The notes beneath the pieces are model-generated. The model saw only the letters and a program-made list of their open reading frames with translations. It made no database searches and was not told where the DNA came from. From contig UYJD01000010.1 in the NCBI GenBank assembly GCA_900618795.1, positions 71,495 through 135,494 on the forward strand: a DNA stretch of 64,000 nucleotides, given 5' to 3'. Source of the stretch: Cyanodermella asteris (Eukaryota; Ascomycota; Lecanoromycetes; Ostropales; Stictidaceae). Each line of letters starts with the position of its first letter. Position 1 is the stretch's first letter. Both the position numbers and the translations under genes were made by a program. Positions 6,014 through 64,000 of the stretch are shown here, piece after piece.

Positions 6014-7731
6014 TTATTCCTGGCGCAAACTAAGGCTAGTTGGATGAAGATCAGGCTGTGCTAGCAACATACCAGAGCACTTGGCCTCTAGGTAAACGTT
6101 AACGTTGATGCCATGTTCGTACCACTGCCCATCACCGGACTCCCTCTTCCGCAAAGGTGGGCTCTCGATGATCTGAATACAGCCATCAATCATAGGCATG
6201 ATGGGATGGACGTAGCGAGGTGTTTGACCGGTTCCAAAATCGATGTCGTATGCACCAGTGTGCACCCAGCTTGTGATCAAGACGTGCCTTCGCCCCAAGA
6301 AAGCCTGCCAGACCCGCTGCGGCGTCACTTCCTGCATGAGGCCATAGATGTGAGCGGCAAGGAGACCAGGCGTCAAGGTGTCCACCGTCTTGCGTATCTG
6401 GTTGGCAACGGCCGGTAGGTGCTCGGCAGAGCAAGCTCGATGTCCTGGAATTGGGACTGCCATGTTTGCTAGTGGTGAGCCGAGAGTATTGCTGGACAGG
6501 GGCGGATCTAGTCTGTTTCGAAGGCCAAAGCTGATGTCTGCAAAGACCTCGCCGTCATCTCGGTCACCAGCATAGCCGCGAGCTCGATTGATCGCCACCC
6601 ATATCTGGGCTATTAGGACGTCCAATGTGCTGGGCATCCGGATTTCGGGATCTTGTTCGATACGTACCGCCTCACGTAATGCTTCAAGATCGGGTCTGTT
6701 GAATCGCAGTACAGTGTGCTCAACAGGAGCTTTCTGATCCCATTCACACTACGGCATCTTCTTTCCTCTAGCGAGGGGAGCTCTGGACTCAGTACGGCCC
6801 TCAAGAATATTAGGCGGTCGCATCGCAGCTGAGCTGAAAGGCGCGTCTTCGTTGTCCCATTGATCATATCGGTGCATGGGTGCCCCAAGTGCTTCTTCCA
6901 TAACTTCGCTCTCGGTGCCATTTCTGACTGCCTTGGTACCAAATCCATCAATCTGATTGGCGTCGGAAGTGTACTTTCCCAAATCCAGCAACGAACTGCT
7001 CAGGGAGCCATCACGAACGAGTAATGCATGCTGTTGTGACCATTCTCGCACGAAAAGTGTCAACGTATGTGCGTCTGCAAGTGGGTGTGATATCTTCACA
7101 CCAAGGACAGCCCCTCCACACGAGAAGATTGTCAGTTGTATCACCACGACAGGCAAGGGCCCCTCTGAACTATCGTCCGTTGGCGCGGTCATACCATATG
7201 CCAAGCTGCCCTGTAGCAAAACCTATTCAAAGTCATTAACGAGCCATCGCCAACCTGGCCCGGGGTGTCACTTACATCTTCTCTCATCAATTTGGTAGCA
7301 CTCCATTTGAGGTTATCTGCCTGAGCTTCTGTCGAAGGTACAATGTCTTCAATCTTCGATTCACAGGACGCGACATCGAACTGGACACCAGGCGCTTTAT
7401 CATCGTTATACCAGACTTCCAAACGGTTATAAAAAGCGCGGCCTGTATGGCGGGCGTCTTCGTCATCGAGGTGTACTGTTCTCAGTCGTCCTTGGAAAAG
7501 CGGAAATAGGTTCAGTACATGTTGCAAGCTTTGCGTCAAGAATTTTGGCTCGAATTCTCCGCCCGTCTCCAAGGGATTCAAGTACCACAAAGCGCCCGTT
7601 GGGGTAAAGTGAGCACATGCAGCATCGATGATCGATAGTCGGTGGCATATTCTATTTGCTGCAGCTGGTGCTTCAAGCGACTTCGCGAAGACTCGTATCG
7701 ATGAATGGATGGAGATCTCGGCGTTGTCCAT
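6014..7731 (-). pseudogene. BAHD/HXXXD-type acyltransferase with one in-frame TAG
   Basis: Family transfers acyl groups from acyl-CoA to alcohols or amines (trichothecene 3-O-acetyltransferase-like, PF02458). Two exons: 7731-7276 and 7222-6014, intron 53 bp; 555 codons. The start is ATG at 7731 (MDNAEISIHSSIRVF). Family signatures: RLSIIDAACAHFTPTGALWYL near the N-terminus (shown here as a 21-residue region at codons 32-52), the catalytic HPLAD with His near codon 198, STLDVLIAQIW and INRARG in the middle, and YDIDFGTG in place of DFGWG near the C-terminus. A TAG at 6749-6751 (codon 310) interrupts the otherwise same-frame sequence between GKKMP and CEWDQKAPVEH; relatives have Trp there, so TGG to TAG is the simplest reading. 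No GT..AG intron around it restores a family-like sequence. Either a recent pseudogene, a polymorphism, a sequence error or a read-through stop. Confidence 0.8.
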
Positions 7732-8907
7732 TTGGTAGAGGGGTAGTGCCACGAGTGTGTGTTGGATACCAGATGAGGCAGAAGCGCAGGTGAAACTCCT
7801 GGCCTTTCGAACGTTTTAATAGTCTCATATCGGCGGATAGTGTGTGCCCCCTGAGACGGATCCAAAGGGTCTATAGTAGTCAGTTCAACTCGCAAATCAG
7901 GAGGATGCCGCGCTAAAACGCGCTATCGTTCCGCGTGGACCACGGTACCACTGCAGTACGGTGGCAGAGATTGTAAGACTCATTTAGACTCATCGAAGAA
8001 CATGAAGCTCGCCTCACGCTCTTTGAACACGTCAGATCTTGCGAGAGGAGGGTCTTTGTGTGGAAGCCACGTGCTGAAGAACAAGTGTCGCAAGTGCGAA
8101 TTGAGCTGTTGTCACCTACCCCAATTTTTAGTCTTATTTAATTCGCAACCGATTGGAGGATACCTTTGCTGCGCAGTACACAGCAACTCAACCCAGCAGC
8201 GCTTTGAAAAAGTTCTCCGTTAAGTGACCATCTGAGGCCCGAACCGAATGCTTGACTGAGTACATATCGAGGTAGACTTATGAATAGACGATAGCTAATC
8301 ACCCGGCCGGATACTTGGCCGTCTGTGTCAGTCGATACTTGGCCAGGTGCTCTACGGACTGCTCAGTTAGACGTTTACAAGAGCACTCCGTCGACTACTG
8401 AGTGAGCCAACAGAGGGACCCTATCCGGAGCATGCCTTGACTCTCGCTGCGGTTCGCCCAGCAGGCGATATTGTCGCTAGTGGTTGAAACCAAGGGCACC
8501 TGGTCGCTTCGGGGTCGATGCGTGCGAATAACAGCGAGCGATCTTTACTGAGTGTATGTATGGCTAAGTCATGTAAATCTAGAGACCGAATCAAGTCAGC
8601 ATCCGTGTCGAGCTTCTTGGAAGTAAGAATGCTGCTGGACGAGGGTATTTCATGTTTCAGGCTTTGGGATGAAACTGAACAGCGGGCGGCGATCACGTGT
8701 TGCAGATCTTCAGGACAGCTTCCACGAATGCGTCTCCTTTCGCCGCAATCCAGCTTTGGCTTCAAGAGACTATTGACGATACCCACAACATTGCACCTTG
8801 AGTGAGAGTAAATCTTGCCTTCTGTCTTTCTTGTCGCTCCTTTATCGACTTCGCCCGCAAGCACAACTTATCCCATCAGCCTTCCAGTCAATCACAATAC
8901 TACCAAC
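7732..8907. other. Intergenic, with a degenerate 12-bp repeat trace
   Basis: About 1.2 kb between divergent genes (acyltransferase minus, DPM3 plus). Reading frames here are short or overlap without protein-like character. A weak copy of the 12-bp repeat found elsewhere in the window lies near 8309-8356. Nothing else seen. Confidence 0.5.
8309..8356 (+). repeat. Degenerate 12-bp repeat (third trace)
   Basis: Two copies of GATACTTGGCC are spaced exactly 24 bp apart (8310-8320 and 8334-8344), matching the GGTACTTGGCTA unit of the arrays at 48331-48450 and, inverted, 45269-45372. The intervening unit is badly diverged. Could be chance, but spacing and sequence both fit the family. Confidence 0.45.
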
Positions 8908-9291
8908 ATGACTCGAGCCCAGCAGACCATCTCCCTTGGTCTTCTCGTTTCTTCGGTACGACAATTGAATCACCCATTGGGGTCACAAGACTGACCTGTA
9001 TCTAGCTCTACCTCGCATTCTTCCTCGAGCTCATCCCCATAAGCGCTAAGATCCAAGAGGAGATCATCCCAGTTGTACGTTCATCGTTCGCGCATGTTCA
9101 TCAACGCTTGTACTGACACTTGCCAGCTGCCATTCTGGGCTCTCGTTTCCTTTGGTGCCTACATGCTCTTCAGTCTTGGCTGGGGCGTTCTCACGTTCAA
9201 TGATATCCCCGGCGCATACGACAACTTGATGAAGGAAATTGACATGGCGAAGAAGGATTTGCGGGCGAAGGGCGTCACCATTGATGACTAG
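8908..9291 (+). CDS. DPM3: Dolichol-phosphate mannosyltransferase subunit 3
   Basis: Small ER-membrane subunit that tethers the catalytic Dpm1 in dolichol-phosphate-mannose synthase, which supplies mannose for N-glycans, O-mannosylation and GPI anchors. Three exons: 8908-8955, 9006-9074, 9127-9291; introns 50 and 52 bp, both phase 0; 93 aa, like the human protein (92 aa). Two hydrophobic segments are visible (about residues 8-27 and 42-62), then the conserved cytosolic tail with FNDIPGAYDNLMKEI and AKKDLRAKGV. Start is the only ATG that gives a family-length product. Confidence 0.93.
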
Positions 9292-9851
9292 ATGAGATCA
9301 AGAGACTGAGGCCTTCCTATCCGCATGGATGTCATTCACATACAGAGCCAATAGCGCTGGGATAGGCGACCAATTTATGTTACTCCGCCTGTTTGTCATT
9401 TAGCCTGATCGATTTTGGCATGGACTCCAGATACCCACGATCTCTCCAGCTCGCGAAGCCGTCCTTGAGACCTCTCAAACCCGCAATATGCACTGTAGAA
9501 CGGGAGTTGGGTTATGGGTCGCTCACATTGTAGATGTTAGACTGGTACGGCGTACGAAACGTGCCGCTGAATGGCATCTGAGCTTGAGCAGAACTGTGCC
9601 AAGCATCGCGAAGCTCCGCAACCAGCCCGCCTTTCGTGCTGCTCTTGTCCACTCTATCGTCTAGCTCAGACTCTACCGACACCTCTCCACATCGAAAGTG
9701 ATACGTTCTGGCCCCGCTGCCTAGGAACATGTATTACAGCAAGTTCCGACCGTGACCGCAACCCGCTACGTCCCATCCGCACTGCGCCCGCTTCCTTCGT
9801 CCCTAGCCATGCCCATTTCTCCGTAATTCACGCCTCGAGTCGCTAAACAAC
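9292..9851. other. Intergenic, AP-2 alpha promoter region
   Basis: About 560 bp. The last 100 bp before the AP-2 alpha start are pyrimidine-rich, as is usual for fungal housekeeping promoters. No gene or repeat recognised. Confidence 0.45.
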
Positions 9852-14372: not shown

Positions 14373-14603
14373 AGGGGCAGGTGTCTTCACAAACTGCACG
14401 CGACAGCTCTGGGCTGGATGCAGCCGTGGGTCATCGGCTGAAGGCGAGCTGGACAATGTTGGTCGTGGGCACACAACTGCTGCAGCTTCATTGCGAAGAC
14501 TCTCAGACACCCAAACTTGTAATCAGTTCATAGAGTACAATCATTGAAATTGTATTACCCAGAGAATAACTCTGCTCTCACAAGCTAAAGCCATTGACAT
14601 CAT

Positions 14604-16699: not shown

Positions 16700-16722
16700 C
16701 CGGAGGCCAAGATCGTGTGGGG
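16700..16722 (+). promoter_or_regulatory. Two CreA/Mig1-like sites upstream of alpha-glucosidase
   Basis: CCGGAG (16700-16705) and GTGGGG (16717-16722) both fit the CreA consensus SYGGRG and lie about 12 bp apart, 230-250 bp before the alpha-glucosidase start. Paired sites are the usual arrangement for carbon catabolite repression. The consensus is short, so chance matches are common. Confidence 0.35.
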
Positions 16723-16952: not shown

Positions 16953-19900
16953 ATGTCGCCGGGCGGGTACCTGTTACAGATCGTCGTTGCCAGTCTATTA
17001 CTATGGGCTGCTGCGAGCACGGGAGCTATCTCGGCGCGCCGACAACTTTCTTCCTGCCCAGGCTATACGGCTAGCAATGTTGTAACAAGTCCTGGTTTCG
17101 TGACCGCGGATCTCAAATTGGCGGGTCCTCCGTGCAATATCTACGGCGACGACCTGGACAACTTGAAGTTACAAGTCGAGTATCAAAGCCGTAAGTATCC
17201 ATCTGGGACAAACGGAAGCCCACTGACCATCAACAGCTCAAAGACTACATGTCAAGATCTTTGATGCCGCACAGCAAGTCTACCAGATCCCGGAATCTGT
17301 GATCCCAAGACCAGAAGCTCACAAATTTTCTATCAACACTTCGGATATCATTTTCTCTCACACGGCGTCACCTTTCTCATTCAACGTCACCAGAAGAAGC
17401 ACCAATGAGACGCTCTTTGATACTTCAGGGACTCCCCTTATCTTTGAATCGCAATATCTGAACCTGAGGACGAAACTGCCGGAGAACCCCAATCTGTATG
17501 GTTTGGGGGAAACTACGGATGACATGCGCCTCGGGACCACCAACTACACTCGCACACTGTGGTCTCGAGATGCACCCAACACTCCTCAAAGCAGCAGCCT
17601 ATACGGAAATCACCCGGTGTACTACGACTACCGAGCCACCGGAACGCATGGTGTCTTTCTACTCAACAGTAATGGTATGGACATCAAAATCAACAAGGAC
17701 GCATCGGGCCAGTACCTTGAATACAATACGCTGGGCGGGGTCATTGATCTCTACTTTCTCTCGGGTCCAAAACCCAAGGACGTCGCAAAACAATATGCCG
17801 AAGTCATTGGCAAGCCAGCAATGATGTCGTACTGGCACTTCGGTTTCCACAATTGCAAGTACGGCTATCAGGACATCTACGAGGTTGCCGAGGTCATTGC
17901 GAACTACAGTAATGCCAACATCCCGCTCGAGACTCAATGGAACGACATCGATTACATGGACAGACGAAAGGTCTTCAGCACTGATCCGTATCGTTATAAC
18001 GTCAGCCTGGTGCGTGAGCTGGTAGATACACTCCACAAGAACGACCAACATTATGTTATGATGGTGGACCCAGCTGTTGCCTATCAGGACTATGCCCCTT
18101 TCAATGATGGAGTGTCTCAACATTCGTTTCTCAAATATGGCAACGGCTCCGCCTACAAGGGCATCGTTTGGCCCGGTGTTACTGCGTTCCCAGATTGGTT
18201 CGCCCCAAACACCCAACAATACTGGTCTGGAGAGTTTGGGAGGTTCTTCAATCCGGGCAGCGGGATCGATATCGATGCTCTCTGGATCGACATGAATGAA
18301 GCCTCGAACTTTGTGACTTGGGATTCCCCAACAGATTGTGGCCTGGCATGCAGTTACCCGGAACTATCCGCAAATGTCAGCGGAAACCCACCTCGACGAA
18401 TGCCTCCTCGAATTGGATCACCCAGGCCGATCAAAGGCTTCGGACCGGATTTCCAGCCTCGATGCCATTCCATTGTCAACTTTACTGTCACAGCAGATAC
18501 CAAGAACCCTCGAGAAGGAATGCTCATTCTGGGTAATTCTGTCACACTTGGCGACAGCCGCATCGACTACGCTCCACCCATGCAACACGCCGGAAACACA
18601 TTCAATGTTGTGGCAGAGATGCCTGCTAATGGTCATTTCACCTATCAGTACGTGCGGGTCATCGACGAGCATTTTTTCGGCTACGAGAAGGTTCTCCGAA
18701 ATATCTCCACTGGCGGCTGCGGCTCTGTTCAAATAATCAAAGACACGATCACAACTCCGCCGTTAAACGTCACAGGCACCGCACAAGATGGTTACGGGTC
18801 CGCGCCCAATAAAAAGCGTTCGATGCCATCAAAGAGTTCTCAGCTTGTGCAAAGGCAAAGCGGCTCGATGCTGGGACTTCCCGGCCGCGATCTTCTCAAC
18901 CCAAAATACCAAATTGCCAACACGTACGGTCCGGGGCTTTCTAACCACACACTTCAAACCGACATAATCCAGCACAATGGCGCGGCCGTTTATGATACGC
19001 ACAACTTGTACGGAACCATGATGTCCACCGCATCCCGCAACGCCATGCTCTCCCGTCGCCCCCAGTCCCGTCCACTGGTCGTAACCCGGTCCACGTTCAG
19101 CGGCGCTGGAGCCCACGTCGGACATTGGACCGGCGACAACTTTGCGAGCTGGGAGCAATATCGCTTCGCCATCCAGGAGATTCAGGAGTTTGCCGGAATG
19201 TTCCAGGTTCCAATGGTCGGGTCCGATATCTGCGGCTTCAACCCGCCGGCCACGACCACGACTCTGTGTGCGCGCTGGGTCTTTGTCGGTGCTTTCAGCC
19301 CCTTTTTCCGGGACCATGCGGCGGACAACCAGATGCCGGCGCCGTTGTATTACGATCCGTTCGTGGCTGCTGCTGCGCGTGCCGCGATCGATGTGCGGTA
19401 CCGGCTGCTGGATTATGCGTACACGGCGTTCTATAAGCAGACGGTGACCGGTGATCCGTGGATCAACCCAATGTTCTTCATGTACCCGAACGAGCCTGCC
19501 ACGGCGGATGTGCAGTGGCAGTTCTTCTACGGCGATAGCTTGCTTGTGGCGCCCGTGACACAGGAGAACAGTACCGAAGTCACCTTCTACATGCCGAACG
19601 ATTTATTTTACAACTTCTGGACCTACGAAGCGGTCAAGGGTAGCGGGGCTAACGTGACAGTCGGGGATGTCGGGTACGAGATTATGCCTCTGTACTTCAA
19701 GGCGGGCAGTATCGTGCCCATGAGGACGGAAGGCGCCATGACTACCACCGCGTTGAGGAAGAAGAACCTGAACGTCGTCATAGCACCGATCTCGAATGGA
19801 ACGGCAAAGGGCTCCTTGTACCTGGATGACGGAGATAGTGTCGTACAAGCTGCAACTAGCAACATCGATTTCGTGTACAGCGGTGGGCTATTCAACATGA

Positions 19901-20064
19901 GTGGAACCTTTGACTACGACGTTGGAAGTGTGGTTATTGCGAACCTGATCTTGCTCGGCCAGAGCGAAGCTGGACAGGGCGGAAACTTCAACGAGACCAG
20001 CAAGGCGACCACATACAAAGTCAATGCCAGCTTGAAACAGGCTTTCACAGAGCAGTTGGTCTGA
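16953..20064 (+). CDS. Secreted GH31 alpha-glucosidase with inserted CBM20-like module
   Basis: Exo-acting alpha-glucosidase releasing glucose from maltose, malto-oligosaccharides and starch ends. Two exons, 16953-17190 and 17237-20064 (intron 46 bp, phase 1); 1021 aa. An N-terminal signal peptide is clear (LLQIVVASLLLWAAASTGA). GH31 N-terminal beta-sandwich follows (NPNLYGLGE), then the barrel: WHFGFHNCKYGY, the nucleophile Asp431 in WIDMNEASNF, and the acid/base Asp713 in HWTGDNFASW. Between these two residues, about 495-583, lies a stretch that aligns with starch-binding CBM20 domains (see separate feature). Many N-glycosylation sequons. Upstream CreA-like sites suggest glucose repression. 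Convergent with RPT1, 172 bp apart. The GH31 assignment is firm; true substrate preference is inferred. Confidence 0.94.
18481..18747 (+). other. CBM20-like domain inside the GH31 catalytic region
   Basis: Residues about 495-583 follow the CBM20 pattern: FTVTADT, GMLILGNSVTLGD, then PANGHFTYQYVRV, LRNISTGGCG and a closing KDT, matching in order the strands of glucoamylase starch-binding domains. The binding-site tryptophans seem missing: LGDW is LGDS here, and the WE of the second site is YE. So it may be a structural relic or bind glucan differently. Seen by eye only. Confidence 0.7.
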
Positions 20065-20236: not shown

Positions 20237-21613
20237 CTAGTTGTACTGCATATATGTGGCTGTCGAGTTAAACTTCAAGTTGCCCTTGATCACCTTGTCG
20301 ACAGCAGCCAAGAAGTCCTTTTCCGTTGCCACCTTTCTCCTTGCGCGAATGGCAAACATGCCAGCTTCTGTAGCAACACTCCTGAGCTCGGCACCCGTTG
20401 CGTTGGGGCATAGTCTCGAGATCAGCTCCCAACGGATGTCTCGTTCGACAGACATGCTCTTCGCGTGAATTCGGAGGATATTTGCTCTGCCTTCAAGGTC
20501 AGGCAAGCTAAACTCGATCTTTCGGTCGATACGTCCAGGTCTCATCAAAGCCGGGTCGAGTGTGCTGGGTCTGTTGGTGGCGAACATGACCTTGATGTTT
20601 CCTCGGCTGTCGAAACCATCGAGTTGTGTGATGAGCTCCAGCATGGTCCTTTGAACTTCGTTGTCTCCTCCAGCACCGTCGTCGAATCGTGCACCTCCGA
20701 TGGCGTCGACCTCGTCAAAGAAGATGATGCAGGCCTTCTTCGTGCGTGCCATCTCGAAAAGTTCCCTGACCATCCTCGCGCCTTCACCAACGTATTTCTG
20801 GACAAGCTCCGACCCAATAACACGGATGAATGTGGCATCCGTTCTGTTCGCCACTGCTCTCGCGCAAAGTGTCTTTCCGGTACCAGGTGGGCCGTACAAT
20901 AACGCACCCTTCGGGGGGTCGATACCCAAGTTCACGAATCGTTCCGGGCTGAGTAAGGGCATCTCCACGACTTCTCTCAACTTCTCAATCTGCTCCTTGC
21001 ATCCACCAACATCGCCATACGTGACATCTGGCTTGTCTTCGACTGTCATCATCGTAACACTGGGGTCGATCTTCGGAGGTAGCGGTAGCAGGATCTCATA
21101 CTTATTTCTGTCGACACCCACCCGCATGCCTTCCTCGATATCTGTGGGTGACACGCGCTCACCGAGTTTAACGACAAACTTTGCTATTTGCTTGACGTTG
21201 ATGACGTATTTCGTCTTCTCTTCCTTCTCTTCTGTGATGATCTTGGTGCAGCGGGCGACTTGCAAGGGGTGCTCTTCTGACATGCGTTGCCGATCGGCAG
21301 CAATATCCCAAAGATGGGGCGGAGCGAGCCCGGTATCCGACTCTTTGACGCCTGGAGAAAGTGTGTGTTAGTGGACTGTAGAGCCCGAACAGGTACTTCG
21401 TGCGTGCTTACCAGTCTTCTCGTTCACGCTGGTCTGAGCATCCTTGATCTTCTTTTCCAGCTGCTTCAACTCCGCAGCATAAGGTGCAGCTCCATATGTC
21501 TTCAGAACCTGAATATCCTCATCTGTCAAGGGCGTGATCTTCTTCTCAGGCTCCTCATCGTCGGCGAAGTTCTTCTGATACTTCTCCCAGTCCTTGCCCT
21601 TGGCACTCGGCAT
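20237..21613 (-). CDS. RPT1: 26S proteasome regulatory subunit 7 (Rpt1 ATPase)
   Basis: One of six AAA ATPases of the 19S base that unfold and translocate ubiquitylated proteins into the 20S core. Two exons: 21613-21412 and 21351-20237, intron 60 bp in phase 1; 438 aa. N-terminal coiled coil ([21 protein letters not shown]), OB fold, then AAA module with Walker A GPPGTGKT, Walker [14 protein letters not shown], sensor [17 protein letters not shown] with arginine fingers. The C-terminus TATYMQYN is typical of Rpt1 and distinguishes it from Rpt2-6. The gene is convergent with the alpha-glucosidase. Confidence 0.97.
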
Positions 21614-23192
21614 GCTTGCGGCTCTGCAAAGGTTTGTTCAGATGTCTTACTTCCAAGTTGATCGAACGAGCCCGGTATTTGATAGCGGCTTTGCCCAGTC
21701 CGGAGGTGGAGGAACGGAGGAGGGGGGTTGTGTGGAGCTGAAGAGGGTGCTGGTGAAGCTCACAGAGCCGCTCGCTCGCCATGCCATTCGATGTCACCGC
21801 GCTGACGTAAGCACAGACCACCGCATCTTCAATCGGAGCTTTCGTTGACCGCCATCATTACAATTTTGCTGCCAGCACGACTACAGAGTCGGGTAAGACT
21901 ACGGGTAGAACTATTTTCCTCTACAGCTTGGGTATATGCTCGGCAGCATGCAGAGGCTATCCAGATATCCTTGCGACCCAGTGTCTCTGCAGCGACTTTC
22001 GCATCCAGCTTGCCAACGATTTTGGACTGCTGGTAATCGTTATCGTCAGGAAAACATTGACGACCTCTTCGCACGTCTCGCATCGGATGGCGAGACTGCT
22101 TCAGGATACAATGATGGCAATGATCCTCCAGTCTAGCAACGGTTAGCTCTTCCGCCTGCTCGACCTTCGTTCCTCAGCTTTTCTAAGCTCTTTAATTCTG
22201 AGACCTTGACTTGACTGTACTTGCTTGGACGAGCATTGGTGGTGCATCCCCAGCACACATGAAGAGCGAGAAGAGTCAAGCTAATTATGCGCCACGGCAC
22301 TTTGTCCTGATGCCACTTGCATCGGTTGCCTACTTCATTGTTAGTTACATGATACATCTTCTTGTTCTTGCAGATCAGGCCAGCTTTTTGGCGAATGTGC
22401 TGCCTACGGATGTCTTCCGGCTTGATCCTTTCCCTAAGCAGAAGTCTCCGCTGAGCCGCCAATAGACAATCGAGCAGAGTTATGGCTTGATGCTTCATAG
22501 ACTTGGCTCTCTCACTAGCTTGAGCTCATATTTCGCCTTTTCGAACTACAATATGTCCATGCGCAAACGGAATGTACTTGTCCGAGATGGACAGTCTGCG
22601 TCACAGGTGGAGCGTGTTTGTGACGTTCGTGGTCACCGCCAGGGGTAGTTTGGCACTCTAATAAATTCATCTCCACTCCCCAAGCTCGTTCCAAGCTTAG
22701 ATATGTCTTTAACGCGGCACCAGAACTCATGATGGTTACCTTGAGCTGTCAACAACTCTCAGCCACTCAAAGGTCTTGCATTACTCATGGCAAGACTTTT
22801 GCCCCTGCCTTGGGTCTTGCTTCCAGTTTGGTCAGCTGGGCAGGTGACTGGAGCTTTTTTGTATAGGCGGAAAAGCTCAGACCATCTTGAGTTGCCATGA
22901 AGTTCAATCTCTGTCGTGGCAGACGGTGTTTCTACTGTAGGCTGTTACCATTTCGTGGCGGTGCTTTACAACATCTTACGCGCCAGTCTTTCTCCTGTGA
23001 TTTGACGCCATCGCGCTGCCCCGCCGGATTGCAGGAGAACGCCTGCCTTCAGCCTTGCCGATAAAAGAAGCGGTCGCCAGTCATTTTTACCTTCAATTGC
23101 TCCGTGACCTGTACATAGGTCCCTGAGTGCTTCCAGGACGCAACGCAAGATCGTTTATAATCAGTTCTTTGCATGGTCGACAACACTTTATC
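21614..23192. other. Intergenic, no convincing gene
   Basis: About 1.6 kb between divergent RPT1 and the F-box gene. A 121-aa minus frame (22133-22498) and an 84-aa plus frame overlap each other and show no family signature. Presumably promoters at both ends; the middle holds nothing I can name. Confidence 0.45.
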
Positions 23193-24401: not shown

Positions 24402-24828
24402 TTTGCTAAAGTTATGTCTACCATTTCAATGACCAATGTTCTGCTTTCAGCTCATGCAGCCGTTCATTTCTCCCAAGGCATCTTGTCCTCACCTTCCCGA
24501 AACTCCCCTTTGACAGGCCGAATCATCGGCCACATCGTCTCCGGCAGGAACTTTCGCTTCAACTCTTCCATCCTCTCGCTCTGTTCCAAATGATCAAAGG
24601 ACACTTCCACCCCCGGAGCAGCCCTGAATCCAAGTTTCTCGTATACCGGTAACCCTACCTTGCTCGCGTTCAGAAAAGTTTCCCACCCTTCCCCATCCGC
24701 AACCTCAAAGCCCCACTGAAGGAGCATCTGCGTGATCCCGCGCCGTCGAAAATCCGGATGCACAAACACGAATTAAAGAACTGCAAGAACGTAGCACAAT
24801 CATTAGCTTCTCGTCGCACAAAAACACC

Positions 24829-25144
24829 NNNNNNNNNNNNNNNNNNNNNNNNNNNNNNNNNNNNNNNNNNNNNNNNNNNNNNNNNNNNNNNNNNNNNNNN
24901 NNNNNNNNNNNNNNNNNNNNNNNNNNNNNNNNNNNNNNNNNNNNNNNNNNNNNNNNNNNNNNNNNNNNNNNNNNNNNNNNNNNNNNNNNNNNNNNNNNNN
25001 NNNNNNNNNNNNNNNNNNNNNNNNNNNNNNNNNNNNNNNNNNNNNNNNNNNNNNNNNNNNNNNNNNNNNNNNNNNNNNNNNNNNNNNNNNNNNNNNNNNN
25101 NNNNNNNNNNNNNNNNNNNNNNNNNNNNNNNNNNNNNNNNNNNN
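24829..25144. other. Assembly gap (316 N)
   Basis: Run of N. The right edge is homopolymer-rich, so the gap size and flanks should be treated with care. Confidence 0.99.
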
Positions 25145-25833: not shown

Positions 25834-27788
25834 TCACGCGACGGCGTCGACGCCCTTATGTTCTGTCGTGATCGTGACCTCCTCGGCCTGAGAGTCTTTG
25901 CTACTAGCATGCCTCGCGCCGTTGACATCGTGGTCCGCATCCCATTTCATAACCTGATCCTTGGGCACCTTGACCAAAATGTGGGTCTGTGCACCGTCGC
26001 CGAGATCCAACAGCTCCTGGCGCATTGCGTAGCCCTTACATTTGGGGAGCACGACGATCCAGATCGCGTAGTAGAGGGCGCAGAGGAGGATAACGCCAAT
26101 GCCAACAACTAAAGAAGTAGAGTCAGTAAGTGCTGCAGGGTCTGTGAATCGGTTGCACAGTTATTTCGACGTACCGATATAAGTCCCATACCAAAAGCTG
26201 ACATCGCCGCCATATGGACCAGCATCCGGCGGATACCACGAAATCACGATTAGATAGAGCTGAACAGCGATGTTGAAGACGAGAGCCACGTCCCAGGCTC
26301 GGAAGGAGGGTCGCGGAAGACCGAGCTTGGAGCGACGGTGACGCAGAATGTAAATGCCAACACTCAGGAGCAGCGAGAAAATCGAGGCCGGGTAGATCTG
26401 CAAATCGGTGGTGAAGTTGAACGCATCACCCGCTGGCGGGCCCAGAATCATGATGATGGTGAGCACATACTTGATCAAGTACGGGCCGGTTGGGGTTCCG
26501 AAGGGCTTTGTGGAGGCCCAAAATGAGGGATATGGAAGCACGCCTTGACGACCACACTCACGCATCATGCGTGATGTGCCCAAGAGGACGGAGATCAGGT
26601 TTCCAAAAGAGCTTAGGGCGATGAGAAAGTTGAGGCCACGTACGGACTGGTCATTGCCGAACACTTTGGTGAAGAGGAGACCAGCTGCTATCTCCTTGCC
26701 CGCAAGGATCTCTTCCTTGGGGATTGCAGCGAAGAAGGCAATGTTGGCGAGCATGTAAAGTGTAGCAACGATGATCACCGCCGAGAAACCGTTGTTGCGA
26801 ATGCTTTTGACTGGGTTTTTGACCTCATTGACAACGTTGAAGGCATTCTCGAAACCGGTGTCTGGAGGAGATTAGCAAACCCGCTGCAAGTACTGCTTGG
26901 GCCAGCACTTACAAGCAAATATGATTTTGTACAGGGCGTTTGTCACACCATATGTTGAAGTCGATCCTCCAAAAGCATCGTGAAAGTTTGTTTTCGGGTT
27001 CTCAACGTTGGTGTGTCCTCCGAGCACAACGAGCCCGATTATGGCGATTAGAAGAAGCGTAGCAACTTTGATAGCGCTGATGACATTCGCAAATGCATAC
27101 GAAAACCTTGTGGAAAATAGGACGGACAGAAGGGCAATAGTATAACAGCCAATGGCGAGCCCTTTCGTCTCCCAATTCGTGGCTGTATACCCACCGATAG
27201 CGAAGAGATATTTGGCCATGACAACTGCGTTTCCGCTGCTGAAGGACAGGATGACTGTCTGAACAGCGAAAGTTGTCGGGAAAAACCATTTTGGTCTAGG
27301 GTATGCTTGCTCCAGGTAGGCAACCTCTGACCCAGACCGAGAGGGAAAGCATGCAGTGTATTCCAGGTAGACCGAGAGTCCAGACAGCGTCGTCAAAATC
27401 CCGATGAATCAGAATATCAAGCTCAACCCCACAGAGCCTGTGCCTTTGAGGATGGCCGCGGCTGGTGTGAAGTTTAGTATTCAGCCGCAAGCAAGGAGAT
27501 TTTGGACGTACGCGTTGAGAAGATACCCGTTCCTATCATTTTGCCAACATTGAGGAAGACGATTGTGACTGGACCGACATTATACCCCAACGGTGATTGT
27601 GCCTCGACCGGAGCGCCGCTCGCCTCTTGATACGCAATTTGGGAGGTGTTTCCGCCATGCTGGCCGACGTATTTGAGATCGCCATCTGAAACTTGGACAA
27701 TGTCGCTCCCAGAGCTAGACTGAACGACGGAAGATGCTCGAGGGCTGCCGGTACCAACTTTGAACCGGTTCTTGAATAGCGCTGACAT
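25834..27788 (-). pseudogene. MUP1-like methionine/LAT-family amino-acid permease with one in-frame TGA
   Basis: APC-superfamily transporter of the LAT/high-affinity methionine permease group, expected in the plasma membrane with 12 helices. Four exons: 27788-27512, 27461-26913, 26861-26175, 26108-25834; introns 50, 51 and 66 bp; frame kept over 596 codons. Signatures: GKMIGTGIFSTP (helix 1 unwound substrate loop), GLSVYLEYTACFPSRSGSEV, and FAYTGFENAFNVVNEVKNP (helix 6). One TGA at 27409-27411 (codon 110) sits in LSLIF-*-FIGILTTLSG, where the family has Trp (TGG to TGA). No donor or acceptor nearby can remove it. Everything else is intact, so decay is very recent, or it is a read-through stop, a polymorphism or an error. 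Confidence 0.85.
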
Positions 27789-40014: not shown

Positions 40015-41280
40015 CTATTCCTTCGATGCCTTCCACTCATTGTACTTGCTGTAGATGCCCTTTGCAAACTCATCATGCAGGCGATCCACAACCACATCCG
40101 TAGTCATCTCCTGCTGCAGCGCCGCAAAGCCACAGATGCCATTCTCCCTGTCAACTCACCACTCCAACAGTGGCAGTCCACCCCAATGCATCGTGTGCTT
40201 CGCTTTGAAGCCCGGAATGTTACTCATGCAAAGCATACCACCCAAGCCGTAGTCAATATTGTACTTCGAAACATCGATATGCCCATCGATACCCACCGCA
40301 GCGCCCGGAATATTTGCGATTGCACTCAACGCCGCGTTCGCCTGGGGACTCAATTGAGGCGTGAACATCACCTTCGTAGTCTCCTTCTTGAGCAGGACTT
40401 CATCATCGCGTAGCAGACTTTGTAGAACCTTGAAGTAATCTCCTACCCTGGCAAAGCCGTGGCTGCCCGCGGACTCTTCCTGCATTGTCCCGAGGAAGAT
40501 CTCACGGTCTGCTAGGACGGCAAGTCCGCTATCGGGATCTCGCTTGCACATGTCCGCCAAGTCGGCCATCAGCTCAGGATGGTTCAGAGGCCAGAATGTG
40601 ATGCCGTCGATCCCCAAAGGCGTGAAGATGTTGGCCTGCATGTAGTCTTCGAGGCTCTGACCGGAGACGGTGGCAACGGCTCTGCCAGCCCAGTCGATAC
40701 CGAAACCATAGGCCCATGATGAGCCCGGCTCGAACGTCAATGGAAGGTTGTATCTTTCCGCGACGCTGGTGCCGCCTCCTAGCGGGTCACGACCATTCTC
40801 TTCGTACCATTTGGCAATGGTCGGAGAGAAGAAGTGGTACGAAGCCCCAGCGCTGTGAGTGAGGAGTTGCCTGCGCCATGAGTCAGTACTACCCCTCTGT
40901 GAGACCCTTGAGGATTGAGCTTACCTTCATGTAATTGGCTTCGTGCTCGGATGCTCTACGAACTTTCCCTCCTCATTCAAGGTGACGATGTTTTTGTTAG
41001 CCAGCTCGGGGATCACCTTGGAAATATCGCCATCGAGCTCGAGCAGACCACGTTCAACGCACTGCATAGTGGCGATGGTCCCTAGCAACTTCGTACAGCT
41101 GGCAAGTCTCACAAAAGTATGCTTGTCAAAGGGCTTCGCTTCTGCATCGGGCTTCCACGAGCGCACGCCAATGGTCTTTTCAAAGTGAAAGCTACCGTCG
41201 GCGTTCGAGGCCAACAGGATCGCGCCAGGTCCAAAAAGCTTCTTCTCGTAAGCTTGTTCCCAAACTTGTTCGAAAGACAT
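40015..41280 (-). pseudogene. Class-C beta-lactamase/transesterase-like serine hydrolase with two in-frame TGA
   Basis: Related to LovD-type acyltransferases and EstB-type esterases. Two exons, 41280-40925 and 40870-40015, intron 54 bp; 404 codons in one frame. The catalytic SxxK is present (SCTK, residues 61-64), as are RQLLTHSAG, WAYGFGIDWAG and a C-terminal HWGG. Two TGA codons interrupt it: 40927-40929 (codon 118, between STKPIT and RQLLTH) and 40156-40158 (codon 357, between PLLEW and VDRENGICGF). The second is at a family Trp (WW pair). A GTGAGT..GCAG intron of 46 bp could cover the second stop, but splicing it removes the conserved VDRENGICGF and brings a new stop at once. So the gene is probably dead or being lost. 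Confidence 0.8.
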
Positions 41281-49487: not shown

Positions 49488-50688
49488 TCACAAGCTAGCC
49501 AGCATCCCTGACCTGCTGTGACAATTGATGTACTCAAAGATTTGCTGCTCTGGTTCCACCACTTGGACTTCGTGGAAGAGTCTCAAGCTGACATTGTTGT
49601 TCAGCTTCTTTGCATATTGTAAGAATCCACCGAAGATGTCAAGATGCGTCTTGTGCTTCTGTGAAAGATGGCGCAATGCCGTCAGCCATCTTGCTCTCTC
49701 ATAATCATACATGCACGCTTCGCATGACAGTTTCCTGTCCCGGGGAGTACTCGTTTTGGAAATCACGTACCTTACTCCAACCCTCAAGCGATGCTAGATC
49801 ATCAAAATAAGCCAACCCAAAAGTCTTCTCCGTCGACTCGCCCTCCGCAACGGCCGGCGAAGTCTCACTCGGCAAAACATCCATGAATCGACAACTGAAA
49901 CAACCAACCTCGTCCCCACTATCACGCAGGAAATCCATCCCCTTCGTCAACACGGGATGCATGGTCTCCAGATAAAGTTTCCGCTCCTCAGGAAGCGTCT
50001 CTGACCAATCCTGACCCGATCTAATGACAGCGAGATTCTTCTTCGGCGCCACGCGCACCCTCTTGCGCAAAGTCTCCTCGCGTTTCTTGTCTCCCGGTCT
50101 CCAAAGCTCACCTTGCAAGGCGTCCGTCTGTGCGAGCGGTAGACGGTCCCTCATGCTTCCCCAGTAAACGTGCTCCTCGATCATACCGCTCATCTTTTCT
50201 CTCATGTGCGCTGCGCCCTCGGGCACGACGCCGTCGGAAAAGACGGTCTCGAACCTATCCACGCTCGGCATGAAAACCTCGCGGAACCAGCCCAGCTCCT
50301 CTTCCTCCGCGATCAGACCCTGGAACCATTTCTCGAATCCGCTCTGTTGGATCCAATCGAAATATCCGGCTTTCGTCGGCCAGTAGGCGATCACGACGGC
50401 GTTGTATGCACCCGAGGCATCGGTCACGGATGCGAGATCAAAGTGCGAAGGCTTGCAGGTCTCTGCGGAGGAGGTGATGAAGCTTCGGATTCTGGAGATG
50501 CCGGTGCCGACTTTGGATTTCTCTCCGGAGCGGTCTTGGACGCTGAGATAGGCGACTGCGAGCTGTTTTGTGTCTTTTGGAAAACGGGCGCAGTACGCTG
50601 GAAAAGGGGGTTGGTATTTTGGAGGGAGGGCGGCGGGGATGGTGCGCTCGACGCGGAGATGGGGCGCGATTGCTGATTCGAGTTCCAT
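49488..50688 (-). CDS. Haem-containing aldoxime dehydratase-like enzyme
   Basis: Family (PF13816) dehydrates aldoximes such as phenylacetaldoxime to nitriles, using a haem that binds substrate directly. Two exons, 50688-49771 and 49658-49488; intron 112 bp, phase 0 (GTACGT..CACAG); 362 aa, usual length. N-terminus MELESAIAPHLRVERTIPAA and PPFPAYCARFPKD are typical, as are WFREVFMPSVDRFETVFSDG, HVYWGSMRDRLPLAQTDAL and DVLPSE. The 3' exon brings KTHLDIFGGF and LRLFHEVQVV, whose histidines are my candidates for the axial and distal catalytic His, and the closing EYINCHSRSGML. The frame without splicing would replace this with a non-family tail. Cytosolic. In fungi it may detoxify or use plant or bacterial aldoximes; no nitrilase lies nearby. 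Confidence 0.88.
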
Positions 50689-52575
50689 TTTCAATCACTT
50701 TCGGACAAGAGTAAAACAAGCAGAGGACACGAGTAGGAGAATGGATGAAGTGAGCAAGTTACATGTATTCAGACACTGTAACTTTTGGTCGTCGGATACG
50801 GGTCAAAGCCAGAGATAACGGATACCCCTCTGCTTCCGCATTGTGGTGGTCCGTCGCGCTCGTTTCAATGTCGAGGCAACAAGTTGATGGTCGATAAGTG
50901 AGGTTCCAGCCCTCCCCCTCATGAAATAGAGTTTATTTCCACCGTTCCGCCAGACTGACCGAGATAACTGACCTGGTTCAGTAAGATTGGGGAAGCGCAC
51001 CGTCAGAAGAGAGCGTGCTGGGTAGATGTGTTCGGGCCGTGAACAGATATTCGGAAGCGTTCGTGGTGGTTCAATAGCACATTCTGAGGATGTTCTTACC
51101 TACATATGGGCCCTTGGGAGCGCATTGCTAAATGGGCTTGCGGTGCACAAGGCACGTACGTGTCGTCTAACACCCTGGTTAGCATAAGCATTGCCGCTCA
51201 AGATCTATTGCATCTCGACTGGCTCAAATTTGTGTTTGCTCTAATTGGACTCTCTTTTCGCGCAGCGGAAATATTACTTATGCGTCTACTTTTGGGCGCA
51301 AAGAACGACTTTCGACACGATGGCTACAGGCTGCATTACAGCATGTTCAGAAGATGCATGATTGACTCAGTAGTCGACATTGCTCTTGGCTGTCGACAAG
51401 TCGAGGCTGTCGATTGAGTAAGATAATATGGTGCAGTTCTTGTCCAGCACATTGAGATTTTAGCTAGAATCTGGCTCGACCCATTCTGTGCCAGCGGTTC
51501 ACCTGACACTCCCGTCCCGACATCAGCAAGCCGATCTTGAGATCCTAACCACCAAGCGTTGTTTCAAACTGATCGAAGAAACGGCCCATTCCCCTCCTCC
51601 CGACTCGATCTCGATCGAACCCGTGGGGAGGATTACTTCAGTCGCCCTGCGTGTGCCGTCTCTGCACTGTGACGCCACAGGCGTTTCCCTCTCACCGANN
51701 NNNNNNNNNNNNNNNNNNNNNNNNNNNNNNNNNNNNNNNNNNNNNNNNNNNNNNNNNNNNNNNNNNNNNNNNNNNNNNNNNNNNNNNNNNNNNNNNNNNN
51801 NNNNNNNNNNNNNNNNNNNNNNNNNNNNNNNNNNNNNNNNNNNNNNNNNNNNNNNNNNNNNNNNNNNNNNNNNNNNNNNNNNNNNNNNNNNNNNNNNNNN
51901 NNNNNNNNNNNNNNNNNNNNNNNNNNNNNNNNNCACCTTTCGAGTTCGTACGCGGTTTCAGGGTACCTCAAAATACAGAAGTCGACAGGTTGATCTTCGA
52001 CAATCAGTGCTGAGAAGCCAATAACATGCGATGAGCCTCGTGGTAGTCTCAAGCTGCATGGACCTTCTGTTCGACAAAGTCCGTCCTGCGCCTGAAGCCC
52101 AAAGCGACCTGAGAGCGGTGATGTACATGATAGCGTGTGCTCGGCCCCCCATCATCGGCATCTTTGGCCCGTACGATTACCACTCATCAGTCGTCTAGCT
52201 GATGGCTATACTGTGTTCGAGTGCTTATTGTGAACCTCTCGCCAGCCGCTTGTGCGATGGTGCGACATCCACGATGGCTCTTGCGCGGCTTCATTGGGTG
52301 CTTACCCTCCACTTCAGCCTTGTCTCGCTTGTTCACAAACCTTAAATACGAAGTGATATACATCTTCATGACCATGTGGCTGGGCGACTATGTCAGCATC
52401 TGCATCCAGCAGAAGCATATGCAAGGAAGGCTCTGCAGTGATGATGGCAATACCATTCTTATATCAACTTCGACTGGGTACGGCTATTCTTGAATAATTC
52501 TTGATTTCTTGTCTGTTGCGACTTGCGTCTTTTCTACAAGATTTGTATTAACAACTCTGCCTTTTGACTGTCGCG
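50689..52575. other. Intergenic, no supportable gene, contains a gap
   Basis: About 1.9 kb including 235 N. A 103-aa plus frame (51106-51417) has a hydrophobic middle but no motif; frames that run through the gap are artefacts. Divergent promoters expected at both ends. Confidence 0.45.
51699..51933. other. Assembly gap (235 N)
   Basis: Run of N within the intergenic stretch. Flanks look like ordinary sequence, unlike the first gap. Confidence 0.99.
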
Positions 52576-53762
52576 ATGCCGCAAGATCCTACCATCTTTG
52601 CACTTGACATATTCTTCCTTGCGCTGTCATGGATCTTTGGCGGCTTGAGGATGTGGGCGCGCTACCTGCGAGGGCACAAGCCGCAGCTGAGCGACTACCT
52701 TTTGTTTGCAGGCCTGGTCAGTATGGTCGGCCAGACCACGAGTGCTGCACTTCGTGAGTACTCCTCGGGAAGAATAAGAGGAACACGCTCACAGTTTCGC
52801 AGAACAGGTGTACATACCGGGTCCCAACCACTCGACTCCAGTAAGTCCAAATTCACCCTGGTCCCAGAAACCACAACTGACATGGCGTGAAGCTTGAGAT
52901 TCCTACTACCCTTTTCTGGGGCATCGCTCTCTTTTTCATCAAAATGTCCATCCTTACCTTCTACACCTCGCTCTTTAAGGTGAACCGAACCTTTGGCATG
53001 GCCTGCTACGTGACCATGGTCATCATCTCGATCTACACGGTGCTTTACATCGCGTTCTCTCTCCTCAGCTGCATTCCGATCCAGAAACTCATCGACAAGA
53101 GCGTGCCCGGCGCATGCATCAACATTAGTGTCCGCATCATCTGGTTCACGGCCATCAACTTGATGACCGACGTGCTACTGGCTGTACTACCACTACCCGT
53201 CGTCTGGAATTTGCGCATGAAGACCTCAAAGCGAGTCTTGGTCTCGCTCGTCTTCTGCGCTGCTTTCGGGTAAGTCGCAACCCTCTGACATACGTTTTTT
53301 GTCGACTATTGCTGATCTCATAACAGCGTCTGTGCCATCTCGAGCGTCCGCATGGCCTACCTCAGCAACCGCGCACCCTATCTCGAACGCGCATACGGCC
53401 TCTTTACACTACTCGAGCCCGACCTCGGCAGCATAGTCGCGTGTCTGCCCCTTCTTCGTCCACTCTTCACACGGGTCGGCAGGTATGTCAACTGGGTCCG
53501 GGTCGACTCCCCTGTCGATCCCGAACAAGGCGTGGACGAGTCCAAGGGTAGTCCGAACAAGTTTGCCACCGAGCGGCCGATTCTGCAGACACAAATGGAG
53601 AATGGTAACGGTGCTACTACTGCGAGCGAAAGACTAAATGAACATTTGTATCATATTCCGGAGATGGAGAGTGGAGCTGACAGGACTTCGCGTGGGGATT
53701 TGGAGACTGCGGTCAGTCGGGCGGGTGATACTGCTACCAGGCGGTGGGATGTGGAGGGTTAG
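52576..53762 (+). CDS. Fungal rhodopsin-domain (PTH11-related) integral membrane protein
   Basis: Four exons, 52576-52753, 52803-52840, 52893-53269, 53327-53762; introns 49, 52 and 57 bp; frame consistent; 342 aa. Several hydrophobic helices: one in FALDIFFLALSWIFGGLRMW, others around LFWGIALFFIKMSILTFY, CYVTMVIISIYTVLYIAF, TAINLMTDVLLAVLPLPVVW, VLVSLVFCAAFG. The pattern WGIALFFIKMSILTFY and INLMTDVLLAVLPLPVVWNL is diagnostic of the fungal rhodopsin-like domain found in PTH11-type receptors. No CFEM cysteines at the N-terminus. The cytosolic tail (about 90 residues) is charged and Glu/Arg-rich. Role: putative surface sensor; no ligand can be inferred. Confidence 0.85.
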
Positions 53763-60338: not shown

Positions 60339-62805
60339 ATGCCTCCCCCAGTGCAAACGGACAGCGTGACGAGGCTGGACTTGCATTATGACAATTCAGC
60401 GAGCTATAGAGTGCTAACACGCTACAAACAAAGCCAGCAAGGAAAGCATAATGTGTTCGAGACTGCCGCAGGGGTCGTGGTCGGTCAACTTTGGCATAGC
60501 CAGCACGACCCGGACAGCAGGGACCTTATCGCACAGTTCAGTGAGTGAAGCAGCTCCTTCCTCTAGCCTCATACCTATCAGACGACTAATGATCATGATT
60601 TCGACAGTCGTGAACTCCGACACGGTCTCTCTCCGCAATGTCAAAGCTGAAGTGCGCATCGCTACTCCTGACGGTGTCTCTTTTATCAGACTCGCCAATT
60701 CAGCTGTTATTGCAATCAGACTTGGCGATGTTATTTCGATCAACGGTACTTTGATCGCCTCGCATTATCCTCTGCCACCACCAGAGCCAATACCCATGCC
60801 AAGGATCGATTCGAGAAGGATGAAGCTGTATTGTGCCGGTATGAGTTCCGAGTCGGTTGAACGATCCGGCATGTCGGAGACTGTGGAACGTTTTCACACA
60901 TCGCAAACTGACCCGCCAGAGAAAGTTGCTACACCACGTCATAATCGGATCCAGTCTGGATCGACAGATGTAGCAAGGCCATCTCTGTTTGGTGACAAGT
61001 TGTCAGCTTCTCAGGTCGAAAAGATCACAAAGAAGGCGTCCGTCCTCTCTGAGCCACAGATCCGAGCAGTGGATGCTTTGGTACAAGAGTGCGATGTGGA
61101 GAGTCAAGAGCCGACTGCTCTCAAACCATATGGCGGGCAATCAAAGTCTGACACGCAACTTGTGGATGATGCACTGGAAGATGCTCTTGAGTATCTGGAA
61201 GAGCCGACCGAGACTACACATAGAGCGCTGACCAAATCCGACCTGCCAGCCATCAGCATGGTATCTCGACCAGAGACAGCATCGGCCAAATTGCCTCGAC
61301 CTAGAAGTGAGACTCGTTCGAACGTTGCAGACGATGCCGCAGTAACTGCGTCGCTTCAAAGCGATCATGAGGTGCGAACAAGAGCAGCGATGACAAAAGC
61401 TGGCGCCGGCTCAGGGAGCGATCACTCTTCACCAGAAATGGCAGGTGCTGTAGCCCAGCGAGACAGAAGCGATCTAGCCATGGCTTCGCGCAATATTCAA
61501 GACGGTGGCGATGCTGATGCTGGTTCAGCTAACCTTGACCATGCATCATCTGATGACCAAATCATTGAGGATCACACGGGTGACACAGATCTGGACATTC
61601 CCGCAGAAAGTGCAAGGCCTCGGTCAGACATCAACGTGAAGTCGAATGCAGATCACAGTGATTCAGATGCAGGGACCGTCGGCCACGAAATACAGGAGCC
61701 TCGGATTCAGTCCCGACAGGCTGCAGGGAGTTCTGAGCAAGGGAAGAGTCGTCAGCGCTCAAGCAAGAAGGCTGGAAAGATTGCGGCGAATAAGGCCGTC
61801 CGTGCCGACAAGGAGGTGGAAGATCTTGGCAAATTGCTAATTCGGCCACGCAAGCGGAAACGCTCTTCTGGAACAAGCTCTACACTGTCGACGATCGAGG
61901 CTCTCACTGCGGAGCAGCTGGCGATGAGGCGATCTTCTCAACCCATTGCAAAGCCAACTGAACAAAAAGCCACCACAAATGTCCGTCCTGAGCATCCCAC
62001 GCATTCAGATCAAACGTTGCCCAAGCCAGCTTCGCGTAGCTCGAAGTTAACAGCTAGCGATTTGTCGAAGTCAATGGCCGATCCGAACAAGCTGATAAAC
62101 GTGTGCTTCTCTGCTAATATAGAGGGCGTTGACAAGATTGACAACAACCTTCTCCGTAGATTGGGGGTTAACAAGGTCGAAGCCGTGTCTGAGTGCGACG
62201 TCTTTCTGATCAAAGCCGGTCAAGGCTTCAAGAGAACCTGCAGAACTCTTCATGCAATTGCACTTGGCAAGTCGATCGTCACCGATGACTGGTTGGCCAC
62301 TGCAATGGTCTCAGGATACCTGGAAGAACCCGATGACTATTTTGCTAGAGACCCGAAACAGGAGGACCAATGGGGCACGACAATCAAGAACGCAGTCGCA
62401 AGATATGCCGCAGGTTGCAAACCTTTCAAAGATATGATGATTCATTTTTCAGGCACCCTGCGAAAGGATTACGGACCTGCCAACCTGGCTGAGATGAAGG
62501 GATTATTGGTTGCCAGTGGAGCTGCTGATGTGATTATCACAGCGGTGAAGACTGCTTCAGAGCCTGGAACCCTTTTCATCGGAACAGACAACAAGCGGGA
62601 TATATCGGAAGCAACCAGTATTGGCTGTAAGCTGTACAGTAAAGATCTGATTGCTATGGGTGTCTTGCGTGGGGATGCGAACGTGGAGGACAATCAATAT
62701 TTGATCTTTCCGAAAGTGCAGCCACCAGAAGAAGATGAGGAAGCGAGGGAGAAGAAGAAGAAGCCAAAAAGGATGCGCAAGTCTGTAAAGGCAGATGGTT
62801 GCTGA
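60339..62805 (+). CDS. FHA-BRCT protein, MDC1/Mdb1-like checkpoint mediator (putative)
   Basis: Two exons, 60339-60540 and 60608-62805, intron 67 bp in phase 1; 799 aa. Residues about 1-110 look like a divergent FHA fold: strand-rich, TAAGVVVGQLWHSQHDPDSR then VNSDTVSLRNVKAEVRI (the S-x-x-H-like loop is weak). A long Ser/Asp/Glu-rich disordered middle has many SQ/TQ sites (TSQTDP, SRQ, SDTQ) and a nuclear signal RPRKRKRSS. The C-terminal 200 residues (from about 562) hold a BRCT pair: NVCFSANIEG, then ALGKSIVTDDWLATAMVSGY, typical of BRCT helix 3, then a second repeat with MIHFSGTLRKDY and SKDLIAMGVLRG. FHA plus C-terminal tandem BRCT is the MDC1/Mdb1 layout, which reads gamma-H2A at DNA breaks. 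The family call is by architecture, so tentative. Confidence 0.72.
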
Positions 62806-63544
62806 AGGCGTTTTTGATGAAATTGTTGCGGTATTTGGGCCCCATCTGCTTCATATATCACTTACCTGATAGTGCGTCGCTTCAGCGCAATTCGCATTGT
62901 GCGCTAGATTACAGAAAGTATGAGGTTCGAGGACAGCGATGTTACCGCCTGATCGTTTCAGAACAAGCTGCAGATGGTCTGTCCTCCACCTCAGTTTTCC
63001 AAATTTATCTATTCGCTGAACATTTTAACTTCAAACATCTGGGATCAGCATCATCCGCGAGATGCACTGAGCGATAACATCTTTGAGCAGCTCCATACCA
63101 GGAAGACGGCCGACAATAAGCGACTGCAGTGTGATTTAGCGTCCGAAGCGAGCACGCTCGCAGCTACATGTGCCAGAACACTAACTTGTTTTCAGCTGGT
63201 GGCCGATTTGTGGGTCTGGTAAGCTCGTCGCAATGTGCTGTCTGCGGATCGTGAGCCCGCATTCCCGTCATCGCCCACGAACTGCAAGTTTATCTCCTCG
63301 ATTCCCTTCTTCAAGGATGTCACCGGTGTCTGCCAAGAGGTCGTCAGCGGCTATCTCGCCTTTGCTGTTGGTAAAGTCTTCGATCGGGTGGTACCATGGC
63401 ATGCAAGGACCTCCAACAGAGCTTCGGGCAAAGCCGCCATCGGTATTGGAGGAAATGACTCTATGATCTGATGAACCTGTACTCGACAATGATGAAAAGC
63501 ATACAGCTAATACAGAGTCGAACGATGCTGGCGTCCATGAATAA
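62806..63544. other. Intergenic, unresolved
   Basis: About 740 bp. Frames at 63233-63471 overlap in all phases and lack motifs. Might contain the eroded 5' end of the transporter remnant that follows. Confidence 0.4.
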
Positions 63545-64000
63545 GACAACGTAGTCGATTTCATGGATAGGTATTCAGAAAACCCGTTGAACTGGCTATA
63601 CTGGCGAAATCTGAGTCTACAAATGCTCGTGGCACTAATTTCGGAACCATAATCATCGTCCCAGCGGTACCTTAATTGCTGAAAAGACTCAACACCAACA
63701 ACGAACTCTACTCTACCATATAGGTGTCGATAAGGGAGCTGGGCGAGAACTTTGGACCACTCCTGATCGGGCCTCTTTCGGAGAAACACGGTAGGCTCCA
63801 AGTCTACGTGACCGGCAATCTACTGTTCATCATCTTCTCCGTGACTTCAGCGGTCACCACGAACATCTCCATGCTCGTCGCTTCGCGGTTCTTGAACGGG
63901 TTCGCGGCAACCAGCTTAGCACTTGGGCCCAGCATCGTAGGTGATTGTTCCCCGTGAAAAGATCGCGGCAGGTCAATGGCGGTGCTTATCGCAATACCGA
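63545..64000 (+). pseudogene. Decayed MFS transporter, 5' part, runs off the window
   Basis: Plus-strand remains of a drug:H+ antiporter-type MFS gene. One frame has SENPLNWLYWRNLSLQMLVA (cytosolic NPxNW motif plus helix 1 start); the next piece, in another frame, reads GTIIIVPAVP, a TAA (63673-63675) where Gln is expected, then LLKRLNTNNELYSTI and, after a TAG, ELGENFGPLLIGPLSEKHGR, which is MFS motif A. The following helices are intact to GPSIVGDCSP, then a TGA at 63955-63957 where relatives have Arg (CGA to TGA). One frameshift and at least three stops in about 410 bp, so a true pseudogene. The TAG before VSIRE also looks like a splice acceptor, so an intron there cannot be ruled out. Confidence 0.75.

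Follow-up and report, generated by a model that had tools for sequence, protein, structure and literature searches.

Studies of six fungi suggest that pseudogenization is very common in fungi (PMC3898260, cited here, like the other literature below, from excerpts), and pseudogenized genes for carbohydrate-active enzymes and secondary metabolism have been described in Cladosporium fulvum and Dothistroma septosporum (PMC3510045). The locus compared here is a stretch of 64,000 nucleotides from Cyanodermella asteris (the window, positions 71495-135494 of its contig, in a genome of 28,543,958 bases, or 28.5 Mb, on 25 contigs), in which genes for a BAHD-type acyltransferase, an amino-acid permease, a LovD-like serine hydrolase and an MFS transporter carry in-frame stop codons. 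Very probably these dispensable genes of a filamentous fungus have become ordinary pseudogenes or null alleles. They resemble the published pseudogenes of accessory families (PMC3510045, PMC3898260), as far as the excerpts describe these, in being dispensable metabolic genes with disruptive lesions; the organism is a different one, and the present data come from a single assembly. Since pseudogenization is reported to be so common in fungi (PMC3898260) and cases such as those of PMC3510045 are on record, the finding is an ordinary one. The gene content suggests a filamentous fungus rather than a yeast, judging from a fungal rhodopsin domain, the LovD-like transesterase and the large number of P450s that the genome encodes.

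Two other fungal systems invite comparison with interrupted reading frames, namely repeat-induced point mutation (RIP) and the correction of premature stops by adenosine-to-inosine (A-to-I) mRNA editing, known from Fusarium and Neurospora (PMC11156358). In such editing a U is favoured before the edited A, UAG becomes UGG and UAA becomes UGA, and in F. graminearum 70 genes besides PUK1 need stop correction of this kind (PMC11156358). According to the excerpt of PMC11087585, editing is a common feature of Sordariomycetes and is known from Pyronema as well, whereas none was found in Leotiomycetes.

Stop codons that remain after splicing

A first-pass annotation of this DNA had reported in-frame stops, each explicable by one transition, in the acyltransferase, the permease, the hydrolase, a GNAT fragment and the remnants of a methyltransferase and an MFS transporter. 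To follow up these genes, splice models were built by hand and Pfam was run on 30 frames of the window; a home-made coding score, too weak for gene finding, served only to choose open reading frames (ORFs) for inspection. The introns of the permease, hydrolase and acyltransferase models are short and canonical (50-66 nt). Over three of the stops, frame-keeping GT..AG stretches of 40-129 nt that brought in no new stop nearby were listed as splice alternatives.

The amino-acid permease (PF13520; 25834..27788, minus strand) was assigned by Pfam, a splice model and PDB alignments. Removal of its introns at 27462-27511, 26862-26912 and 26109-26174 (50, 51 and 66 nt) leaves a protein of about 600 residues that is interrupted only by one TGA, at 27409-27411. 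Among the four PDB alignments shown, Trp stands exactly below the stop in two and adjacent to it, across a one-residue gap, in two. This supports the single transition from TGG to TGA that had been claimed, and the permease is the only gene for which a C:G>T:A origin is firmly backed by relatives. Two frame-keeping introns of 108 and 123 nt could be drawn over the TGA, with donors matching two of four consensus bases; both would cut conserved membrane sequence.

The serine hydrolase or transesterase (PF00144; 40013..41280, minus strand), assigned by Pfam, a splice model and a PDB match, has its nearest solved structures in Pc15g00720 (E 1.1e-79) and the LovD transesterases, the beta-lactamases being far. 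It contains one 54-nt intron (40871-40924), and the two TGA codons annotated earlier, at 40927-40929 and 40156-40158, both persist after splicing. At stop 40927 the five PDB alignments shown all have Leu, which speaks against a single-transition origin; at stop 40156 three have Phe and two Gln, leaving the ancestral codon undecided. The latter stop overlaps a perfect donor-like hexamer, GTGAGT (40154-40159), and the sequence after it is conserved coding. Seven frame-keeping introns could span stop 40156, the best of them using that donor, and the six examined would cut sequence kept by the PDB relatives. The alternative at stop 40927 is a 93-nt frame-keeping intron with the upstream donor GTTCGT (two of four consensus bases), at the price of 13 codons that fall in a stretch retained by relatives.

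The acyltransferase (PF02458; 6014..7731, minus strand) was recognized by Pfam matches on both sides of its stop and by a weak N-terminal match. The model comprises exons 7276-7731 and 6014-7222 around a single 53-nt intron (7223-7275), and the annotated TAG, at 6749-6751, stays in frame after splicing, the rest of the frame being open. The TAG is spanned or touched by six GT..AG candidates that keep the frame. Two of these, of 57 and 66 nt, would remove it and end before the Pfam-matched part, and their donors match one of four consensus bases; the candidates for an extra intron thus appear rather poor, although such weak alternatives remain. As to the ancestral residue, the PDB alignments were uninformative at this site, and three other PF02458 genes (L030-L032), considered as paralogous guides, were set aside as too distant by eye. 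We assume that fungal relatives have Trp there.

The MFS gene (PF07690; Pfam and tblastn) enters the window with its 5' part only (63646..64000, plus strand) and continues for about 840 bases beyond it. Within the window it has three stops (TAA 63673-63675, TAG 63721-63723 and TGA 63955-63957), and frame changes follow past the edge. Nine MFS frames of the same genome were compared by tblastn with the window and the neighbouring 10 kb, and three gave matches. L042, one of them, matches 63646-64212 (102 bits, frame 1, three stops) and, further on, 64522-64626 (frame 1) and 64686-64844 (frame 3); the match of another, L038, covers 64227-64418 in frame 3 and contains one additional stop. The remnant noticed earlier is, judged from these alignments, a multiply broken pseudogene. 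The first two stops correspond, in a loose alignment, to Thr and Ala of L042, and three paralogues have Pro, Thr and Leu at the third; these residues argue against a single-transition origin.

The two remaining candidates of the first-pass annotation add little. In the GNAT fragment (PF13673; 24467..24780, minus strand; Pfam) the TAA at 24773-24775 follows a likely acceptor at a distance of 5 nt, and a run of 316 N (24829-25144) lies about 50 nt away. This stop cannot be judged because of the adjoining gap and the upstream exon, which is absent from the assembly; the missing part may be an assembly effect. The same N run, one of two in the window (the other covers 235 bases, 51699-51933), adjoins a C-rich homopolymer. 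Neither a motif scan nor the Pfam search of 30 frames, together not exhaustive, turned up a methyltransferase.

A lesion that splicing cannot remove is thus present in the permease, at hydrolase stop 40156 and in the MFS gene; at hydrolase stop 40927 and in the acyltransferase, where weak splice alternatives exist, the case is less strong. The reading as pseudogenes is supported by this persistence of stops after removal of the canonical introns, the alternative splicings being either weak or costly in conserved sequence. Very probably selection on these dispensable genes was relaxed and random mutations introduced stop codons. The acyltransferase, permease and hydrolase would then be young pseudogenes, their reading frame, splice sites and domains being otherwise intact, and the MFS gene, with its several stops and frame changes, would be an older one. 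The stops in the assembly, the frames that run on apart from them and the frame changes of the MFS gene are direct observations; we infer that no full protein is made from these genes and that selection on them is relaxed, and likewise infer the ancestral codon at most of the sites. Relaxed selection is also the best of the options put forward on first pass, given genes that are continuous but for a stop and, beside them, one clearly decayed MFS pseudogene.

Origin of the stop codons

It had been proposed, as one option, that the stops reflect transition-biased mutation. Single transitions convert sense codons into stops in five cases, all of them C:G>T:A, and none of the three stop codons lacks a source of this kind. 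Any stop is therefore explicable by one transition, and the pattern tests nothing. With the codon usage of 44 long ORFs and transition weights of 1-6, C:G>T:A changes made up 25-73% of random nonsense mutations. Transition bias is accordingly not shown by a set of stops that, as far as transitions go, only C:G>T:A changes can make; the apparent directed mutation process is explained by the genetic code, and any nonsense set would look transition-biased. The residue found in relatives at each stop provides the independent test of origin. What had been said of single transitions thus holds formally, as it would for any stop, and relatives bear it out for the permease while contradicting it for hydrolase stop 40927 and the MFS gene.

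A mild RIP-like change, another of the earlier options, shares with the present stops that some of them could derive from C:G>T:A changes. The composite RIP index, which RIP would turn positive by raising TpA and depleting CpA/TpG, was negative in each of the 64 one-kb bins; for the window as a whole it was -0.73, with a product index of 0.56 and a substrate index of 1.29. The window thus differs from a RIP-affected sequence in lacking the dinucleotide signature, and a search with the C-terminal acyltransferase piece returned that piece as its only match, so that it has no close second copy. That RIP or a similar C-to-T process mutated these genes is scarcely credible.

Recoding of UGA as Trp, or a regulated read-through of the stops, would fit the predominance of UGA, which makes up three of the four stops in the acyltransferase, permease and hydrolase, one of them at a conserved Trp. 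Among 44 ORFs of at least 350 aa, however, 27 end with TGA, 12 with TAA and 5 with TAG, which contradicts a general reassignment of UGA. Lesions of the TAG and TAA types occur as well, and one hydrolase UGA aligns with Leu, not Trp, in all five alignments shown. This explanation, too, has a very remote chance of being right.

Hidden introns, sequence errors and mRNA editing

If unrecognized introns covered the TAG of the acyltransferase, and perhaps also hydrolase stop 40927, the acyltransferase would be an intact gene. The six frame-keeping candidates at the TAG and the 93-nt one at the hydrolase stop allow for this; their donors, matching one of four consensus bases (acyltransferase, 57 and 66 nt) or two (hydrolase), compare with two to four of four in eight introns modelled by hand, and the hydrolase alternative deletes residues that relatives keep. 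Such introns would be of no help for the permease, for hydrolase stop 40156 or for the MFS gene, and hidden splicing is unlikely even where it could apply. Canonical introns do account for several neighbouring stops, but as an explanation of the whole set splicing was discarded, because frame-keeping introns over the permease stop and hydrolase stop 40156 would take away conserved sequence. A further source of stops would be base errors in the assembly, and a mixture of sequence errors with true lesions has been documented for fungal assemblies (PMC3898260). Genes with a single lesion are what rare errors would be expected to produce; a hydrolase with two stops and an MFS gene broken in several places are not, and the absence of stops from 30 AAA and chaperonin matches elsewhere in the genome points the same way without being significant. 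It is quite unlikely that the stops arose as errors of this kind.

Editing was absent from the options of the first-pass annotation. It is tempting to speculate that A-to-I editing in the sexual stage turns the acyltransferase UAG into UGG (Trp), so that a living, conditionally expressed gene would stand among true pseudogenes; if true, this would add a conditional gene to the window. The likeness to the stop correction of Fusarium and Neurospora (PMC11156358) lies in a UAG, the favoured stop context, within an otherwise open frame. In a predicted fold the adenosine of this codon is the first base of a 7-nt hairpin loop; the folding energy was no better than that of shuffled sequences (z -0.67; 52 of 200 fold at least as well). 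Unlike the described cases, most stops here are UGA or UAA, and the locus is known from DNA alone. A UAG, with U before A, is found only in the acyltransferase and at one of the three MFS stops, whereas UGA has G before A and an edited UAA would yield UGA, still a stop, so that the permease, the hydrolase and the GNAT fragment fit poorly or not at all. The described taxonomic range, Sordariomycetes and Pyronema with none in Leotiomycetes in the excerpt of PMC11087585, does not favour editing either, and we regard it as highly improbable here, the preferred reading for the acyltransferase being that of a young pseudogene.

Broken and intact genes in the window and the genome

Broken genes also occur elsewhere in the genome, at a few percent in some families. 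A family match was counted as broken if it held stops and at most 12 codons beyond the profile positions, leaving no room for an intron. This was the case for 7 of 102 matches in P450, 6 of 139 in kinase, 1 of 21 in permease (the one in the window itself) and 0 of 23 in beta-lactamase, 14 of 285 in total, which gives a rough count of broken genes for some of the families. The 14 matches contain 11 TGA, 6 TAG and 4 TAA. Two of the six kinase matches lie within 1 kb (C19:930,392-931,310) and look like one decayed gene; this kinase remnant (L047, C19:930392-931310) has several stops and frame changes. Two P450 genes (L045 and L046) each have one in-frame stop in an otherwise continuous frame. The first is a TGA at what we take to be the Arg of the P450 WxxxR motif, and the second a TAG at an aromatic residue, presumably Trp, after the PxR motif. 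The haem-binding loop of L046 looks unusual by eye. A published pseudogene rate for fungal P450s was not found in the excerpts of PMC5869400 or PMC4350166. Outside the count of 14, one of 21 adh_short_C2 (PF13561) matches has a stop and little intron room (18 of 176 candidates scored, the best only); MFS and Sugar_tr matches had no stops among the best candidates scored (9 of 304 and 9 of 189). With four or five broken genes per 64 kb, the density in the window may be higher than elsewhere, but the window was chosen for these genes.

Several points weigh against the interpretation as pseudogenes of dispensable families. None of the control matches was broken (AAA 0 of 20, chaperonin 0 of 10), and the difference between 14 of 285 and 0 of 30 is not significant (Fisher p 0.38; P450 alone, p 0.35). 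Candidates were scored in part for most families (P450 92 of 164, kinase 124 of 177, permease 20 of 57, AAA 20 of 84) and completely only for two (beta-lactamase 23 of 23, chaperonin 12 of 12). The rule of intron room is rough: among the 14 matches the surplus of codons is 7-9 in three, another falls short of the profile positions by 14 codons, and the hydrolase of the window, whose match contains an intron, escapes the rule. Moreover, the single lesions of acyltransferase and permease would also fit polymorphism or sequence error, and that of the acyltransferase an unrecognized intron or RNA editing.

The earlier statement that core genes stay intact and accessory genes break is plausible, but the genome-wide control is too small to show it (Fisher p 0.35-0.38). 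MED17 and an NTH1-like HhH-GPD gene have open frames, confirmed by Pfam, and in the AAA ATPase annotated as RPT1 (20237..21637, minus strand) the AAA match (C9:92001-92396) is stop-free. Core-gene junctions were inspected in THI20, RPT1 and PFK1; the names LSC2, AP-2 alpha, DPM3, THI20, PFK1 and RPT1 are those of the first-pass annotation. By eye, the apparent stop falls inside a likely intron at the THI20 and RPT1 junctions (near 21370 in RPT1), so that introns explain part of the raw stop signal in core and accessory genes alike. The other half of the statement is no rule, since five accessory genes are open across their matched domains in the window as well: those for a GH31 glycosidase (17227..20064, plus strand; PF01055, E 1.2e-101), an FMN reductase, a MAPEG protein, a haem-containing dehydratase (49705..50688, minus strand; PF13816, E 9.6e-80) and an F-box protein.

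As to the remaining content of the window, no tRNA was found in it, and Rfam gave no match at the gathering threshold. The gene with the Fung_rhodopsin domain occupies 52552-53759 (52.5-53.8 kb), a junction near 52.8 kb being unsettled. The GC content lies between 43 and 57% per 2-kb step across the window.

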